Below are positions 30,412 through 37,076 of a stretch of 56,905 bases of DNA, in pieces. How positions within the stretch are numbered: position 1 is the first letter of the stretch; every line of letters begins with the position of its first letter. This stretch comes from an uncultured Clostridia bacterium (GTDB lineage Bacteria; Bacillota; Clostridia; Oscillospirales; Acutalibacteraceae), in assembly GCA_947626485.1 (NCBI GenBank), contig CANQSG010000002.1, positions 1 through 56,905 of the forward strand. The letters are read 5' to 3'. The translations under genes and the position numbers were made by a program. Below the pieces are notes generated by a model. That model was not told where the DNA came from and did not search any database. It saw only the letters and a program-made list of their open reading frames with translations.

Positions 30412-31281
30412 TTACCTCAAATCTTCCAGCACCTTGCCGATATCGCTGTTAATACAGATCGACTGCGCCTCGATCTCCGTCGGGCAGACCGCTTCGCCGG
30501 TGTTGATACAGGCATAGGTCGCCGCTTTGTTCTGCGCGGTCATGCGCCAGAAGGGGTATTTGATGATGACCGGGGTATTGTAGCCGACGCCGAGCTCTAA
30601 AAACAGGATCCGCCCGTCTTTTCGCGTGCGCAGGAAGGTTTCATACCGCTCTGCCGCCTCGTGCCAGCCCGCGTCCTCGACGAATTTATCGTCGGCGCGC
30701 AGGTTCATCGTCAGCGGCTTCCCGCAGTGGGGGCAGACGGGCAGCAACTCGGACGGGATCCGCATATCCGTTTGCCGTTCCATCATTTGTCGGACGGCGG
30801 TTTCGTTGTCGAAAGTCTCCTGCCGGCAGGGTTCGGAGCACTGAAACAGCCCGTAGTCGCCCTGGGTGTAGAACAGGCGCGTTTTGTCGAAGCCCGCCTT
30901 TTGAAAACAGTGGTCGACGTTCGTGGTGAGGACGAAATAATCCTTGTCCCGCACCAGCGCCAGCAGCGTTTCATAGACCGGCTTCGGCGGGTCGGTATAG
31001 CGGTTGATGAAAATATACCGGCTCCAATACGCCCAGAATTCCTCCGGCGCGGGGTACGGATAAAACCCGCCGGCGTACATATCGGAAAAGCCGTATTTGT
31101 CGGCAAAATCGGAGAAATAGCGCCGAAACCGCTCGCCGGAATAGGCAAACCCCGCCGAGGTCGACAGCCCCGCGCCCGCGCCGATGACAACGGAATCCGC
31201 CGCTTCCAGCGCCGCCCGAAGCCGCTTCCCGTTATCCGAGCAGCTCCCGGTAGAGTTTGCAATCGGTATCCTTGAAAACAT
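30412..31281 (-). CDS. SIR2-family protein, class M sirtuin (SirTM-like, putative protein ADP-ribosyltransferase)
   Basis: ADSVVIGAGAGLSTSAGFAYSGERFRRYFSDFADKYGFSDMYAGGFYPYPAPEEFWAYWSRYI... TTNVDHCFQKAGF. Confidence 0.85.
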   Translation of the reverse strand: MFSRIPIANSTGSCSDNGKRLRAALEAADSVVIGAGAGLSTSAGFAYSGERFRRYFSDFADKYGFSDMYAGGFYPYPAPEEFWAYWSRYIFINRYTDPPKPVYETLLALVRDKDYFVLTTNVDHCFQKAGFDKTRLFYTQGDYGLFQCSEPCRQETFDNETAVRQMMERQTDMRIPSELLPVCPHCGKPLTMNLRADDKFVEDAGWHEAAERYETFLRTRKDGRILFLELGVGYNTPVIIKYPFWRMTAQNKAATYACINTGEAVCPTEIEAQSICINSDIGKVLEDLR

Positions 31282-31993
31282 TGAAGATCACCTCCGTGTC
31301 GCCTTTGGATTGCCGCACCGTCTCCACGGCGATTTTCGCGGCTTCGTCGTTCGGAAAATGAAACTCTCCCGTGGAAATGCAGCAGAACGCCACGCTTTTG
31401 ATATCGTTTTCCTGCGCCAGCGCCAGGCAGGAACGGTAGCAGGAAGCCAGCAGCTCCCGGTCGGTTTCGGTCACGCTGCCGGTTATAATCGGGCCGACGG
31501 TGTGCAGAACGTAATCACAGGGCAGGTTGAAAGCGGGCGTCAATTTCGCCTGCCCGGTCGGCTCCTCATGCCCCTGCTTTTTCATCATTTCGGCGCAAGT
31601 CAGCCGCAGCTGAACCCCGGCGTAGGTGTGGATGGCGTTGTCGATGCAGCTGTGGCAGGGGACATAGCAGCCGGTCATGCCGGAATTCGCGGCGTTGACA
31701 ATCGCGCCGCATTGCAGCGTGGTGACGTCGCCCTGCCAAAGATAAATACCCGGCTCGACGGGCGACAAATCGGCGAAATCCGTGACGCCCTTTCGGGCGG
31801 TTTCCTCCCGCAGATAGGCGTCCTGCACCGCGAGAAAATCTTCGCCGATCGGCTGCGGCGGCCGGACGTTGAGCAGCGAGCGCAGCAGCATTTTCTGCCC
31901 CGCTTCATCGGACGGAACGGCCAAATCCCGATAGCGCGGCTGCTCGGAAAGCAGCTTCTCGATGAGGAAAATTCTTCGCTCGGCTTGTGTCAT
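31232..31993 (-). CDS. Zn-dependent macrodomain, protein-ADP-ribose hydrolase
   Basis: GDVTTLQCGAIVNAANSGMTGCYVPCHSCIDNAIHTYAGVQLRLTC; Cys/His pattern of the zinc macrodomain class. Confidence 0.92.
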   Translation of the reverse strand: MTQAERRIFLIEKLLSEQPRYRDLAVPSDEAGQKMLLRSLLNVRPPQPIGEDFLAVQDAYLREETARKGVTDFADLSPVEPGIYLWQGDVTTLQCGAIVNAANSGMTGCYVPCHSCIDNAIHTYAGVQLRLTCAEMMKKQGHEEPTGQAKLTPAFNLPCDYVLHTVGPIITGSVTETDRELLASCYRSCLALAQENDIKSVAFCCISTGEFHFPNDEAAKIAVETVRQSKGDTEVIFNVFKDTDCKLYRELLG

Positions 31994-32172: not shown

Positions 32173-32499
32173 ATGAAAACGAAAGCGGAACTCATCCCCG
32201 AATGCCCCGTCGCGACGACGGTGCAGCTCATCGGGAACAAGTGGAAACTTTTAATTATACGAAACCTGCTTGACCGCCCGTGGCGTTTCAACGAGCTTCA
32301 AAAGAATCTGGAAGGGATCAGCCAAAAGGTACTGACAGACAGCCTGCGGTCGATGGAGGCCGACGGGATCATCACCCGCACCGTCTACCCGGAAGTCCCG
32401 CCGCGCGTGGAATATGCGCTGTCAGAACTCGGCGAATCCATGCGCCCGATCCTCGATTCCATGAAAGCGTGGGGCGAGGCGTATCAGAAAAGGGGATAA
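32173..32499 (+). CDS. HxlR family helix-turn-helix regulator
   Basis: PVATTVQLIGNKWKLLIIRNLLDRPWRFNELQKNLEGISQKVLTDSLRSMEADGIITRTVYPEVPPRVEYALSELG. Confidence 0.95.
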   Translation: MKTKAELIPECPVATTVQLIGNKWKLLIIRNLLDRPWRFNELQKNLEGISQKVLTDSLRSMEADGIITRTVYPEVPPRVEYALSELGESMRPILDSMKAWGEAYQKRG

Positions 32500-32826: not shown

Positions 32827-33995
32827 ATGGGTAACGGAAGGATTGCCGTTGACAAACGGACGGCACCTCAAAACACACGGAATACGAATATAGAGTGGTT
32901 ACGTATTGTTTCCATGCTGCTGATTGTCGCTTACCATGCCGCCTCGGAATGGGGGGGGGGTATACAAGTACTGATCAGCCGATCATAGTCTATCTTACCG
33001 GAACTGTTTTCGGTTCCTGGGGATTGTTAGGGGTGGATTTGTTCCTCGTTATCAGCGCCTGGTTTCTTGCATCTCAGCCGTTTCGATCAAAAAAAGTAAT
33101 TTCCATTTCATTTCAAACGTTCACGTGGGTGTTCGGATATTCTGTCCTGTATGTTCTGTATCATCTTTTCTATCTGCATGACGGGGTAGGGACAACCGTA
33201 TTCGAGTTTTGCAGATATTCTCTAATTGGGTTTTTTCAACCGTTTTGGTGCCAATATTATTGGTTCGTGACCACTTATTTTTTTCTGTTGCTATTGTCTC
33301 CCATTTTCAATAAGCTATTGGAGGTTCTGCAAAAATCCCAAGTAGAGAAGCTGCTGCTGATCTTTATCTTTGTGCCTGTTTACGCACAGTACAGCACCAG
33401 TGCCGTATGTGATGTTTTCCGTTTTGCGTATGTGTATCTGCTGATCGGATATATCAAAAAATACGGCAGCAAAACAATTGAAAAATACGCGAAGGCGCCG
33501 GTCTATATTTTCCTCATATTGTTAGTCCTTGTGTCAAAATGTGTGCAGTACTTTCTGCCGTCGAATAAAGTTTTCGCATCGATCTGCACATTATTGAATC
33601 GTACTGTTGCGAGCACCGGACGACATTCTATGATCATTTTGATTATTGCGATGTTGATTTTCTTTGATGTGCTTCGCAGAAAACCGACATACAACCGCAC
33701 AGTCAATCACATTTCTTCCCATTGTTTAGGCGTGTACTTGTTCCACGAAAACAATCTTCTCGGGCTGCCGAATACGCTGGATGTGATTTTCAGAAGGTCG
33801 ACGTCCCTGGGGTATTTAACGCTCAACAGTTGGTTTCCCGTTCAATTCACAGGGATTGTTGTGTGCGTTTTTATTGTCGGGATCCTTCTCGAGTGGCTCA
33901 GGGAATTGATTCTGCAAAAGCCTTTCATGAAGTACGTCTCTAAAAAATGGACGCACAAAATGGAGGCAGTTGACGCATGGTTTAATACCCTCTGA
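32827..33995 (+). CDS. Acyltransferase 3 family membrane protein, interrupted by frameshift at poly-G tract
   Basis: Frame 1 MGNGRIAVDK...NIEWLRIVSMLLIVAYHAASEWGGG runs into stop; frame 2 continues YTSTDQPIIVYLTGTVFGSWGLLGVDLFLVISAWFL... to 33995. Frames meet at the G10 tract. Confidence 0.85.
32951..32960 (+). repeat. Homopolymeric tract G10 inside acyltransferase gene 1
   Basis: GAAT-GGGGGGGGGG-TATAC. Confidence 0.97.
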
Positions 33996-34029
33996 TTTCA
34001 ATTTACGGCGTGTTTGATGAGGAAATAGA

Positions 34030-35104
34030 ATGATGACAAGTACAATTCCGAGCAAGAGTAAGGCGAGAAATCCCTACATAGATATTACAAAATTCATTAT
34101 GGCACTACTTGTTGTTGCCATTCATGTGCGACCTGCCGACGGGGAACTCGGATTTATTATCGCGAATGTTATTGCTCGCGTGGCAGACCCCATGTTTTTT
34201 ATCATTACAGCGTACTTTTTATTTGCAAAAGCCAAAAAAGCAGAAGGAAAAATGGGGGGGGGTACTGAAGAATTATATAAAACGAATCGCTATACTGTAT
34301 GGGGCGGCATTGATCCTATACAGTCCGCAGATCATTTCAAGTTGCCTACGAGCAAGTGACAACGGTTTCGAAGTGGTTTTACGGCTTGTGAAGAAAATAC
34401 TGTTTCAAGGGCCATACGGACCTTTGTGGTTTTTGACCGCGTTGTTTCCGGCGGTGATATTAACCTATTTTTCTTCGAAATATTTAGGCGCTTGGAAAAC
34501 GGTTGCCATATCGTTTGCGCTGTATCTTCCGTCGGTTTTAGACACCGAATACAGCGCTCTTTTTTCAAACTGCGCTCCGATGCAATATTATACGAAGTTT
34601 ATTTTGAAAATATTTGGATCCTATGCAAACGGCTTGACCTTTGGCTTCTTCTTTTGCGCGATCGGGATGATATTTGCCTTTGAATTTGAAAGCGGCGATT
34701 TAAGGAAAGATTTATTGGCGCTGATTCTGTCTTTTGCGGCTTTGTTTGCAGAGGCGCATATCGTATGCAAATATGGATGGGGGAAGGATTATTGGGCTTT
34801 ATTTTTCCTGACGCCTGTTTGCATATACGGAATGAGAGTGTTGTTAGAACTACCGAAACACGGAGCGGAGTCGAAATTGGTCGCCAAAGCCAAATCGCTG
34901 CAAAAAATGAGCGTATTGATTTTTATATTTCATTGTTTATTCCTTGACGGATTCAATTTGGTGCTCGGCTCTTCTGCTGCGTGGTGGAATAATTATCCGA
35001 TTCTCAGGTATGGTCTTGTGGTGATATTCACGATGTTGTTTTCCGTGCTTATCATATGGCTTTCCGGCTATGACAGACTCAAGTTTCTGCGGTATTTATA
35101 CTGA
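34030..35104 (+). CDS. Acyltransferase 3 family membrane protein, interrupted by frameshift at poly-G tract
   Basis: Frame 1 MMTSTIPSKSKARNPYIDITKFIMALLVVAIHVRPADGELG...KAEGKMGG; frame 2 continues VLKNYIKRIAILYGAALILYSPQII... to 35104. Frames meet at the G9 tract. Confidence 0.85.
34254..34262 (+). repeat. Homopolymeric tract G9 inside acyltransferase gene 2
   Basis: AAAAT-GGGGGGGGG-TACTG. Confidence 0.97.
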
Positions 35105-35257
35105 GAACCGCCGGGAAAGGCGTTTGTGTCCGGCAAGGGAGCCGGTCTTGCAGAGGTACCTGTTATGCGGCGATAACGGAAGGATAACGTGACGGTGCTT
35201 GCATGGACTACGCCAAATCACCGCGAGCGTTTGACGGCGCGGGTGGATTTACGGGGA

Positions 35258-35296
35258 AGAGCGTTCGGGCTTTTTGGGCTCGGGCGCTCTTTTTTC
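35258..35296 (+). terminator. Intrinsic terminator
   Basis: AGAGCG...CGCTCT followed by T-tract. Confidence 0.65.
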
Positions 35297-35357: not shown

Positions 35358-37076
35358 ATGGAGATTGCTTTGGCGGAGATGGGGCGGAAGTCGGTTGCGG
35401 AGTTGGCGGCGGTTTATGCGCATGAGGCGGAGCTGGCGGGCGGCGATTTGTGCGGAGCGCCCGCGCGGGTGAGAAGGCGGGCTTGCCGGCACGTTTGGCG
35501 GGGCTGGTACGCGCTCGACGACCTGTCGCCGGCGGCGAAGCAGAAGATAGAGACGGCCGACGACGCCGGGCTTTTGCAATTTTTGCAGGACTGCGCCGCC
35601 GCGCAGGACGCGTATCTTATGCAGCGAAAGCAGGCGTTGACCGCCGCCTGTGCGGAGTTCGACGAGCCGGTGCGGCAGGCGTTTTTCGCGCTGTTCGAGA
35701 GCGGCACCGTCGAGCCCTGCCTTTGCGCGCGGGGCGACGAGCTGCTGCTCTGCGTCGAATCGGGGGTCGGGGTCGACCGCACGCTTGTTTTGCGCCGCGC
35801 CGTCTGCGACCCCGCCGACCTGCCCGACCGGCGCGTCGTCTACCTCGACCCCGATGCGCTGACCCTCGAGCTCGACGGCGACGATTGGCTTTTGCGCGGC
35901 GACGCCGAGCCGCACGGGCAGGACGCGACCTTTCCCTTTTCGATTCGGTTTGCCGCCGCCGGGGTACACATCATTTCGCTGCACGCCGCCGAGATGAGCT
36001 TTTACGACGACCTGTGGGGCGACCTCGAGCTGCTCTGCATGGCCGTTTTGAACAAATACGACGTCTGCCCCGCCTGCCTCAACGCGCGGGAGACGGCGCT
36101 GCTGCCGCTCGCCGGGGAGATCGCGCGCCTGCACTGGGCGGCGGCGCTGCCCGAAGAATTCGCGACCGGTCGCTTCCCGTTGCTGCGCGAAAAGCTGCAA
36201 GGCGCCGGGCGGGAGCTGCTGCCGCTGCTCGACCGGGTGGAGGCGAATTTTTCCGATGACCGGAAGAAAAGCCGTGCGCTCGAACAGTTGCATCGGCGGC
36301 TGAATCAAAAGCGGTACGAGCCGCTCTGGCGGGAACTGCACGCGCCCCTCGCCGCCTCGCAGGACGGGTATCCGGTGCGCGCGGCGCTTTTTTGGGACGA
36401 AAGTGATTTCGACGAAAAACGCCGGGCGGTCGCGGCGCTTTTGCATGCGCGCGGCTATGCGGGCGACTATCCGCACTTCGTGAAAACCGGCAAAATCCGC
36501 GGCCTGCACCTCGCGCGGTCGCATAATGTCAGCTATCTCGTGGGCGCGGGGCGGCGCGCCGCCTTTCACATTTTCTGCACGGAAAACTGCCTGTACGGCT
36601 ATCCGGAAATCGAGTTTCACTGCGGCACGCAGCTGCTGAAAAAGGGCGAGGCGCCGGGCGATATCTACGCCTGCCAGTTCGACACGCGCGGCCGCAGCTT
36701 CGGCGGGCTCGTCGCGTACAGCTGGGGCGAGGCGGACGCGGACGAGGCGTCGCCGCTCGACCTGGCGCAGACCGTCGCCGTCGCCGCGAAAAAGGCGGAG
36801 CTTTCCCGCCTGACGAAGCAGGAACGGCGGGCGGTCGGCGAGGTCGGCGGCGGGTTCTCGCTGACGGTCTTTCTGCTCGGCTTTTTGGTCGGCGGCGGGC
36901 TGTTCGGGCTGGGGATGACCGCCGTGCTGCTCGTCGGCGCGCTGCTGACGCTGCTTTTCCTCGGCCCGCAGGCGATCCCGCAGATGCTGACCGAAATTCC
37001 GTGGCCGGGCGTTTTCCTGCTCGCGGGCGGGCTGTTCGGCCTCGCCTTCGGCATGCTGGAAGCGATCGACCGGTAA
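35358..37076 (+). CDS. Hypothetical protein, large soluble region plus C-terminal transmembrane helices
   Basis: 572 aa; C-terminal LTVFLLGFLVGGGLFGLGMTAVLLVGALLTLLFLG and VFLLAGGLFGLAFG. Confidence 0.8.
   Translation: MEIALAEMGRKSVAELAAVYAHEAELAGGDLCGAPARVRRRACRHVWRGWYALDDLSPAAKQKIETADDAGLLQFLQDCAAAQDAYLMQRKQALTAACAEFDEPVRQAFFALFESGTVEPCLCARGDELLLCVESGVGVDRTLVLRRAVCDPADLPDRRVVYLDPDALTLELDGDDWLLRGDAEPHGQDATFPFSIRFAAAGVHIISLHAAEMSFYDDLWGDLELLCMAVLNKYDVCPACLNARETALLPLAGEIARLHWAAALPEEFATGRFPLLREKLQGAGRELLPLLDRVEANFSDDRKKSRALEQLHRRLNQKRYEPLWRELHAPLAASQDGYPVRAALFWDESDFDEKRRAVAALLHARGYAGDYPHFVKTGKIRGLHLARSHNVSYLVGAGRRAAFHIFCTENCLYGYPEIEFHCGTQLLKKGEAPGDIYACQFDTRGRSFGGLVAYSWGEADADEASPLDLAQTVAVAAKKAELSRLTKQERRAVGEVGGGFSLTVFLLGFLVGGGLFGLGMTAVLLVGALLTLLFLGPQAIPQMLTEIPWPGVFLLAGGLFGLAFGMLEAIDR

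Follow-up and report, generated by a model that had tools for sequence, protein, structure and literature searches.

Poly-G tracts at the frame breaks of two tandem acyltransferase genes suggest phase variation in an uncultured Clostridia bacterium

Slipped-strand phase variation is textbook knowledge for a few Gram-negative mucosal bacteria, and in Campylobacter and Neisseria it is G tracts that slip. Two further systems invite comparison with the gene pair described here. Bifidobacterium breve belongs to a different phylum from our genome, and NeuO of Escherichia coli K1 differs from the pair in being a polysialate-specific prophage enzyme and not an acyltransferase-3 (AT3) membrane protein. 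The poly-G/C genes of Campylobacter, Helicobacter and Neisseria are like the pair in having about 8–12 G or C residues within the coding sequence of surface-modifying enzymes, with the frame acting as the switch and several loci per genome (e.g. PMC8355987, PMC2823697). Those are Gram-negative mucosal bacteria in which switching has been measured, whereas the genes considered here come from a GC-rich uncultured group known from sequence and the targets are mainly AT3 genes. Bifidobacterium breve offers a likeness as a gut commensal in which a G tract splits two open reading frames (ORFs) that are joined at the right length; measurements showed that the length of such tracts, similar to ours, varies in the population, but the target is sortase-dependent pili, whereas here it is acyltransferases (PMC9187656). 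Phase-variable AT3 genes are also on record, namely, oafA of Haemophilus influenzae and oafB of Salmonella, which resemble our candidate pair as AT3 enzymes and whose switching expression alters sugar O-acetylation (PMC9558356). The oafB gene of Typhi is switched epigenetically (PMC9558356), whereas here the tracts are coding poly-G and lie in AT3 genes of several unlike lineages within one genome. NeuO resembles the candidate pair in the phase-variable acetylation of a surface polysaccharide (PMC3046976).

The window (the whole stretch of DNA that was analyzed, 56,905 bases) contains two adjacent genes whose reading frames each break at a G tract. The features of the locus are as follows:

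32827–33995, plus strand: gene 1, AT3 acyltransferase (PF01757), out of frame as assembled, with R-X10-H in the first helix
32951–32960, plus strand: G10 tract at the gene 1 break, in the loop just past the first-helix histidine, with TA after it; frame restored with 8 or 11 G
34030–35104, plus strand: gene 2, AT3 acyltransferase (PF01757), out of frame as assembled, with K-X10-H in the first helix
34254–34262, plus strand: G9 tract at the gene 2 break, in the loop past the second helix, with TA after it; frame restored with 8 or 11 G
35253–35295, plus strand: terminator-like hairpin and T run 3' of gene 2, a consensus match only, as the scan count was not above that of shuffles
32173–32499, plus strand: HxlR-type regulator (PF01638, 112.9 bits), the upstream neighbor

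The ATG of gene 1 is preceded by GGAGAG and that of gene 2 by GAGG, and 34 bases separate the gene 1 stop from the gene 2 ATG. The initial annotation had placed the tracts exactly at both frame breaks, which we confirmed, and our recomputed frame arithmetic agreed with its rule that both genes become full length when the G count is 2 modulo 3. By this computation gene 1 yields 53 aa at G10 (slightly less than the "about 54" first given) and 388 or 389 aa at G8 or G11, and gene 2 yields 109 aa at G9, as previously stated, and 357 or 358 aa at G8 or G11. The description of the pair as AT-rich also held, with a GC content of 43% and 42% against a background of 60.6%. The neighbors of the pair are the HxlR regulator and a protein of unknown function, and no polysaccharide-type cluster was seen among the neighbors inspected, unlike at a third AT3 gene on contig C32 (see below). 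Elsewhere in the window, at 30412–31993 on the minus strand, lie adjacent sirtuin-like and macrodomain-like genes, named by eye.

Read through their tracts, the reconstructed 8- or 11-G proteins match PF01757 (curated cut-off, 31 bits) from end to end, in line with their original assignment to the acyltransferase-3 type. Gene 1 scores 77.4 bits over profile positions 2–324 of 326 (vs. 55.7 bits for the downstream part alone), and gene 2 scores 69.9 bits over positions 1–326 (vs. 28.3 and 37.0 bits for its pieces). The AT3 motif R/K-X10-H in helix 1 (PMC9558356, PMC9833829) is present in gene 1 (RIVSMLLIVAYH, with R), in gene 2 (KFIMALLVVAIH, with K) and in the C32 gene (KSFGLFLMILFH). The out-of-frame product of gene 1 cannot be an enzyme, judging from its predicted sequence, because it ends soon after the first-helix histidine. 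The helix 3 region, inspected by eye, reads RSKK in gene 1 and KNYIKR in gene 2, with no strict RXXR. No sequence match to the pair was found among solved structures. A phage origin was considered and dropped, as a search of IMG/VR turned up no relatives of either gene. The scan of genome contigs returned a single relative of gene 1, a tract-free gene, 48% identical, from a rabbit metagenome-assembled genome. The gene after the pair (35358–37076) was not found in ten relatives, a same-genus genome included, and the gain of the pair is therefore not datable by an empty-site comparison.

We then asked how far such runs depart from chance. Apart from the G10 and G9 tracts, the window has no G run of at least 7, and it has no C run that long. 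Dinucleotide shuffles of the whole window gave a mean of 0.70 nine-G matches, and nine out of 100 shuffles reached the observed three, so that the window alone is weak evidence; under the pair's own composition, 0.003 runs of at least 9 are expected and two are observed. A 161-kb portion of the genome, read on both strands, held 832 G4, 201 G5 and 16 G6 runs and no G7, and the full 1.93 Mb (a fragmented draft of 199 contigs, 85.5% complete) held eight G7, five G8, two G9 and one G10. The genome avoids long G runs, and its run-length spectrum shows an excess at 8–10. Two of the three runs of at least 9 genome-wide fall in the window pair (binomial p about 5e-5), and four of the eight runs of at least 8 fall in AT3 genes (binomial p about 2e-8, on the basis that AT3 genes make up about 0.4% of the genome). 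The earlier claim that the runs are hard to get by chance was thus weak when judged by whole-window shuffling but stands on the composition of the pair and on the genome counts.

The locus was originally read as a two-gene switch, which proved too narrow, since at least five AT3 genes are involved here, within a small set of tract-bearing loci. A PF01757 search of the genome found seven AT3 genes, of which five carry a tract (four out of frame and one in frame). The C16 gene has a G8 tract and is in frame; its 49% identical paralog on C17 has a G6 at the same site and is out of frame. The C32 gene is out of frame at a mid-gene G8, past which the second half of its protein is encoded in a different frame; read through, it scores 83.1 bits against PF01757. 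An AT3 pair on C120 has no tract and is intact. Both the C16 and the C17 protein have Y in place of R/K at the X10-H position, which makes their acyltransferase activity less sure. The five tracts lie at four different protein positions, and a repeated origin is therefore favored. The GC content is 42%–44% in the pair and C16, 51% in C17, 55%–60% in C120 and 62% in C32; because of these differences the AT3 genes probably have different histories, and five of the seven are nonetheless tract-bearing. The C32 gene sits in a cluster with a GDP-mannose-dehydratase-type gene, a DegT-family gene, a TPP enzyme and a family 2 glycosyltransferase, as expected of a polysaccharide-decorating enzyme.

Comparison with relatives indicated that the association is restricted. 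None of 104 AT3 genes fetched from relatives had an internal G or C run of at least 7, and the association is therefore a property neither of PF01757 nor of the order; we rejected poly-G in AT3 genes as an order-wide rule, since it is confined mainly to a few genera. It does recur in G111, a 99% complete genome from another genus of the same family, where all four AT3 genes have tracts (three in frame and one out), a count that speaks for recurrence and not for a rate because G111 was chosen for inspection as rich in G8TA:

G111, contig C9: AT3 gene with G9, in frame
G111, contig C13: AT3 gene with G9, in frame
G111, contig C22: AT3 gene with nine Cs in the sense strand, in frame
G111, contig C72: AT3 gene with G10 a few codons past the start, out of frame

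Two further genomes have one such AT3 gene each, G087 with an in-frame G10 and G124 with an out-of-frame G9. In an alignment, the tracts of gene 1, the G087 gene and the C9 and C22 genes of G111 lie in the same loop, directly past the first-helix histidine, and the tract-free rabbit homolog is shorter in that loop. Taking all tract-bearing AT3 genes of our genome and its relatives together, five out of 11 are in frame and six are out, a split close to that expected of freely drifting lengths; this comparison of lengths is between paralogs (C16 at G8, C17 at G6) and other genera, with one genome per species.

We consider it very likely that the two genes are translational contingency loci, in which slipped-strand phase variation alters envelope acylation as part of a multilocus phasome. 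A contingency locus had been proposed at the outset, and the additional AT3 tracts in the genome (one of them in frame), together with the recurrence in another genus, support it as a candidate. DNA polymerase would slip on the G tract during replication and shift its length by a base or so, as analogy with Bifidobacterium breve, Campylobacter and Neisseria suggests for living cells at such lengths. A length of 2 modulo 3 would give the full AT3 membrane acyltransferase from either gene, and at other lengths translation would end after 48–53 aa (gene 1) or 78–110 aa (gene 2). Because the two tracts would slip independently, the pair could adopt four expression states. At G6, the C17 tract may lack the length for frequent slippage. 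AT3 enzymes transfer acyl groups, in most cases acetyl, through the membrane to sugars of the envelope, a role that family membership suggests for the enzymes of the pair (PMC9558356). Cells with different surface-acylation patterns would therefore coexist in the population, and this diversity would help against phages, antibodies or competitors; we infer both the acylated substrate and this benefit to the cells. If the proposal is true, the five tract-bearing AT3 genes by themselves would allow a single cell line as many as 32 acylation states, with consequences for phage resistance, for antibody binding and for how strain differences in metagenomes are interpreted. In uncultured lineages like this one, known only as assemblies, genes of this sort are read as pseudogenes or errors, and phase variation is little described.

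The strongest competing explanation, which we regard as quite improbable, is that the pair are decaying pseudogenes, that is, foreign AT-rich genes with frameshifts fixed at homopolymers. Their low GC does suggest a recent gain, and the fact that four of the five tracts in the genome are out of frame counts against phase variation in that decay fits it too. On the other hand, the frames continue for ∼340 (gene 1) and ∼280 (gene 2) further codons beyond the tracts without a second stop or frameshift. Long G runs are, moreover, very scarce across the genome, and their appearance specifically in AT3 genes is not something that decay would produce. The C16 gene has a tract of this kind in an intact frame, as do three of the four AT3 genes of G111, and the C32 gene bears its tract despite having the genome's own GC content.

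Phase variation must also be weighed against an error of sequencing or assembly, in which the true lengths would be in frame and the poly-G miscounted. Homopolymers of 9–10 G are error-prone on most platforms, and Illumina trouble at G tracts has been reported (PMC9187656). Such an error accounts for a wrong count but leaves the presence of long G tracts in five AT3 genes unexplained, and the C17 gene loses its frame at a mere G6, which is not error-prone. Even with wrong counts the hypermutable coding tracts remain; we judge the error very improbable. Programmed recoding, by which ribosomal frameshifting or RNA-polymerase slippage would produce a share of full-length enzyme from unchanged DNA, is hardly credible: G runs are able to slip in transcription or translation and a following T or TA is common to the tracts, but the shifts needed differ (+1 base in gene 1, −1 in gene 2, none in C16 and another residue modulo 3 in C32), and tracts of this type are also found in intergenic regions and promoter spacers, where recoding would have no meaning.

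Runs of at least 8 in our genome (C2, the window, 32951 and 34254; C1:5434; C16:5366; C32:4754; C39:6783; C55:7878; C94:105) share a 3' boundary. The next base is T in eight out of eight cases (background about 0.3), and the next two are TA in six out of eight (background 3%–5%; p about 6e-7, post hoc). None of the eight G7 runs of the genome is followed by TA. TA follows 13 of the 25 runs of at least 9 in G111, against 12% of short runs, with several of the 25 being element copies or a run read twice. At six loci in relatives (L236, L238, L240, L275, L280 and L227), a TTGACA-like box is followed by G9–G11 and then by a TATAAT-like box, with spacers of 15–20; this layout was found at none of 32 tracts lacking TA. 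These promoter-spacer tracts are candidates for transcriptional phase variation. As an explanation of the TA, promoter spacers fit those loci of relatives but not the coding tracts of our own genome, and we rejected them in that capacity. As far as we found among the open-licence papers searched, the lineage, the concentration in AT3 genes and the shared 3' TA are new; the slipped-strand mechanism itself is classical. Four of the runs in our genome lie outside AT3 genes: the tract at C94:105–112 is in frame near the N-terminus of a lipoprotein-like ORF, that at C55:7878–7886 is upstream of a promoter-like region of a solute-binding-type gene, that at C39:6783 is near the N-terminus of a long beta-helix ORF, and that at C1:5434 lies between genes near an integrase-like ORF.

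A search of 148 genomes gave about 85 occurrences of G8TA and about 30 of its mirror, ATG8, and about 70 loci were inspected, a list chosen by motif and partly by eye, with no enrichment test. Coding tracts across the order were found in AT3 genes, hexapeptide acetyltransferases and glycosyltransferases (G124, G052 and G144), as well as in an amine-oxidase-type flavoenzyme (G111) and a solute-binding lipoprotein (G129). The hexapeptide acetyltransferase tracts are G8–G12 (L230/L066 in G055, L252 in G111, L259 in G052 and L260 in G144); the gene is broken at the tract in G055 and G111, and the tract lies near the 3' end in G052 and G144. Genes without a surface role also carry tracts, for example a recA-like and a Sua5-like gene (both named by eye), whose in-frame G8 is presumably background. 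A broader reading is that the order holds a large poly-G phasome, with a T(A) boundary 3' of coding, intergenic and promoter-spacer tracts alike, made or kept by a lineage-specific process (biased replication or repair, or a protein acting on G-tract-TA) and aimed mainly at AT3 genes, hexapeptide acyltransferases and glycosyltransferases; we offer it tentatively and think it rather unlikely.

Several individual loci are of interest. In G144 and G052, a glycosyltransferase tract lies <2 kb from a hexapeptide acetyltransferase tract. A type I restriction-modification specificity gene (PF01420; L270, G087:C17) is broken at a G8TA between its halves and is a candidate for switching of DNA-methylation specificity. 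At L260 (G144:C5), adding one base to a G8 would join a complete glycosyltransferase with a truncated second copy, a possible switch of the glycosyltransferase C-terminus. Finally, L312 (G111:C9:433 and 1421) has tandem copies of a G10 tract within the DDGSTD motif, identified by eye, of a family 2 glycosyltransferase.
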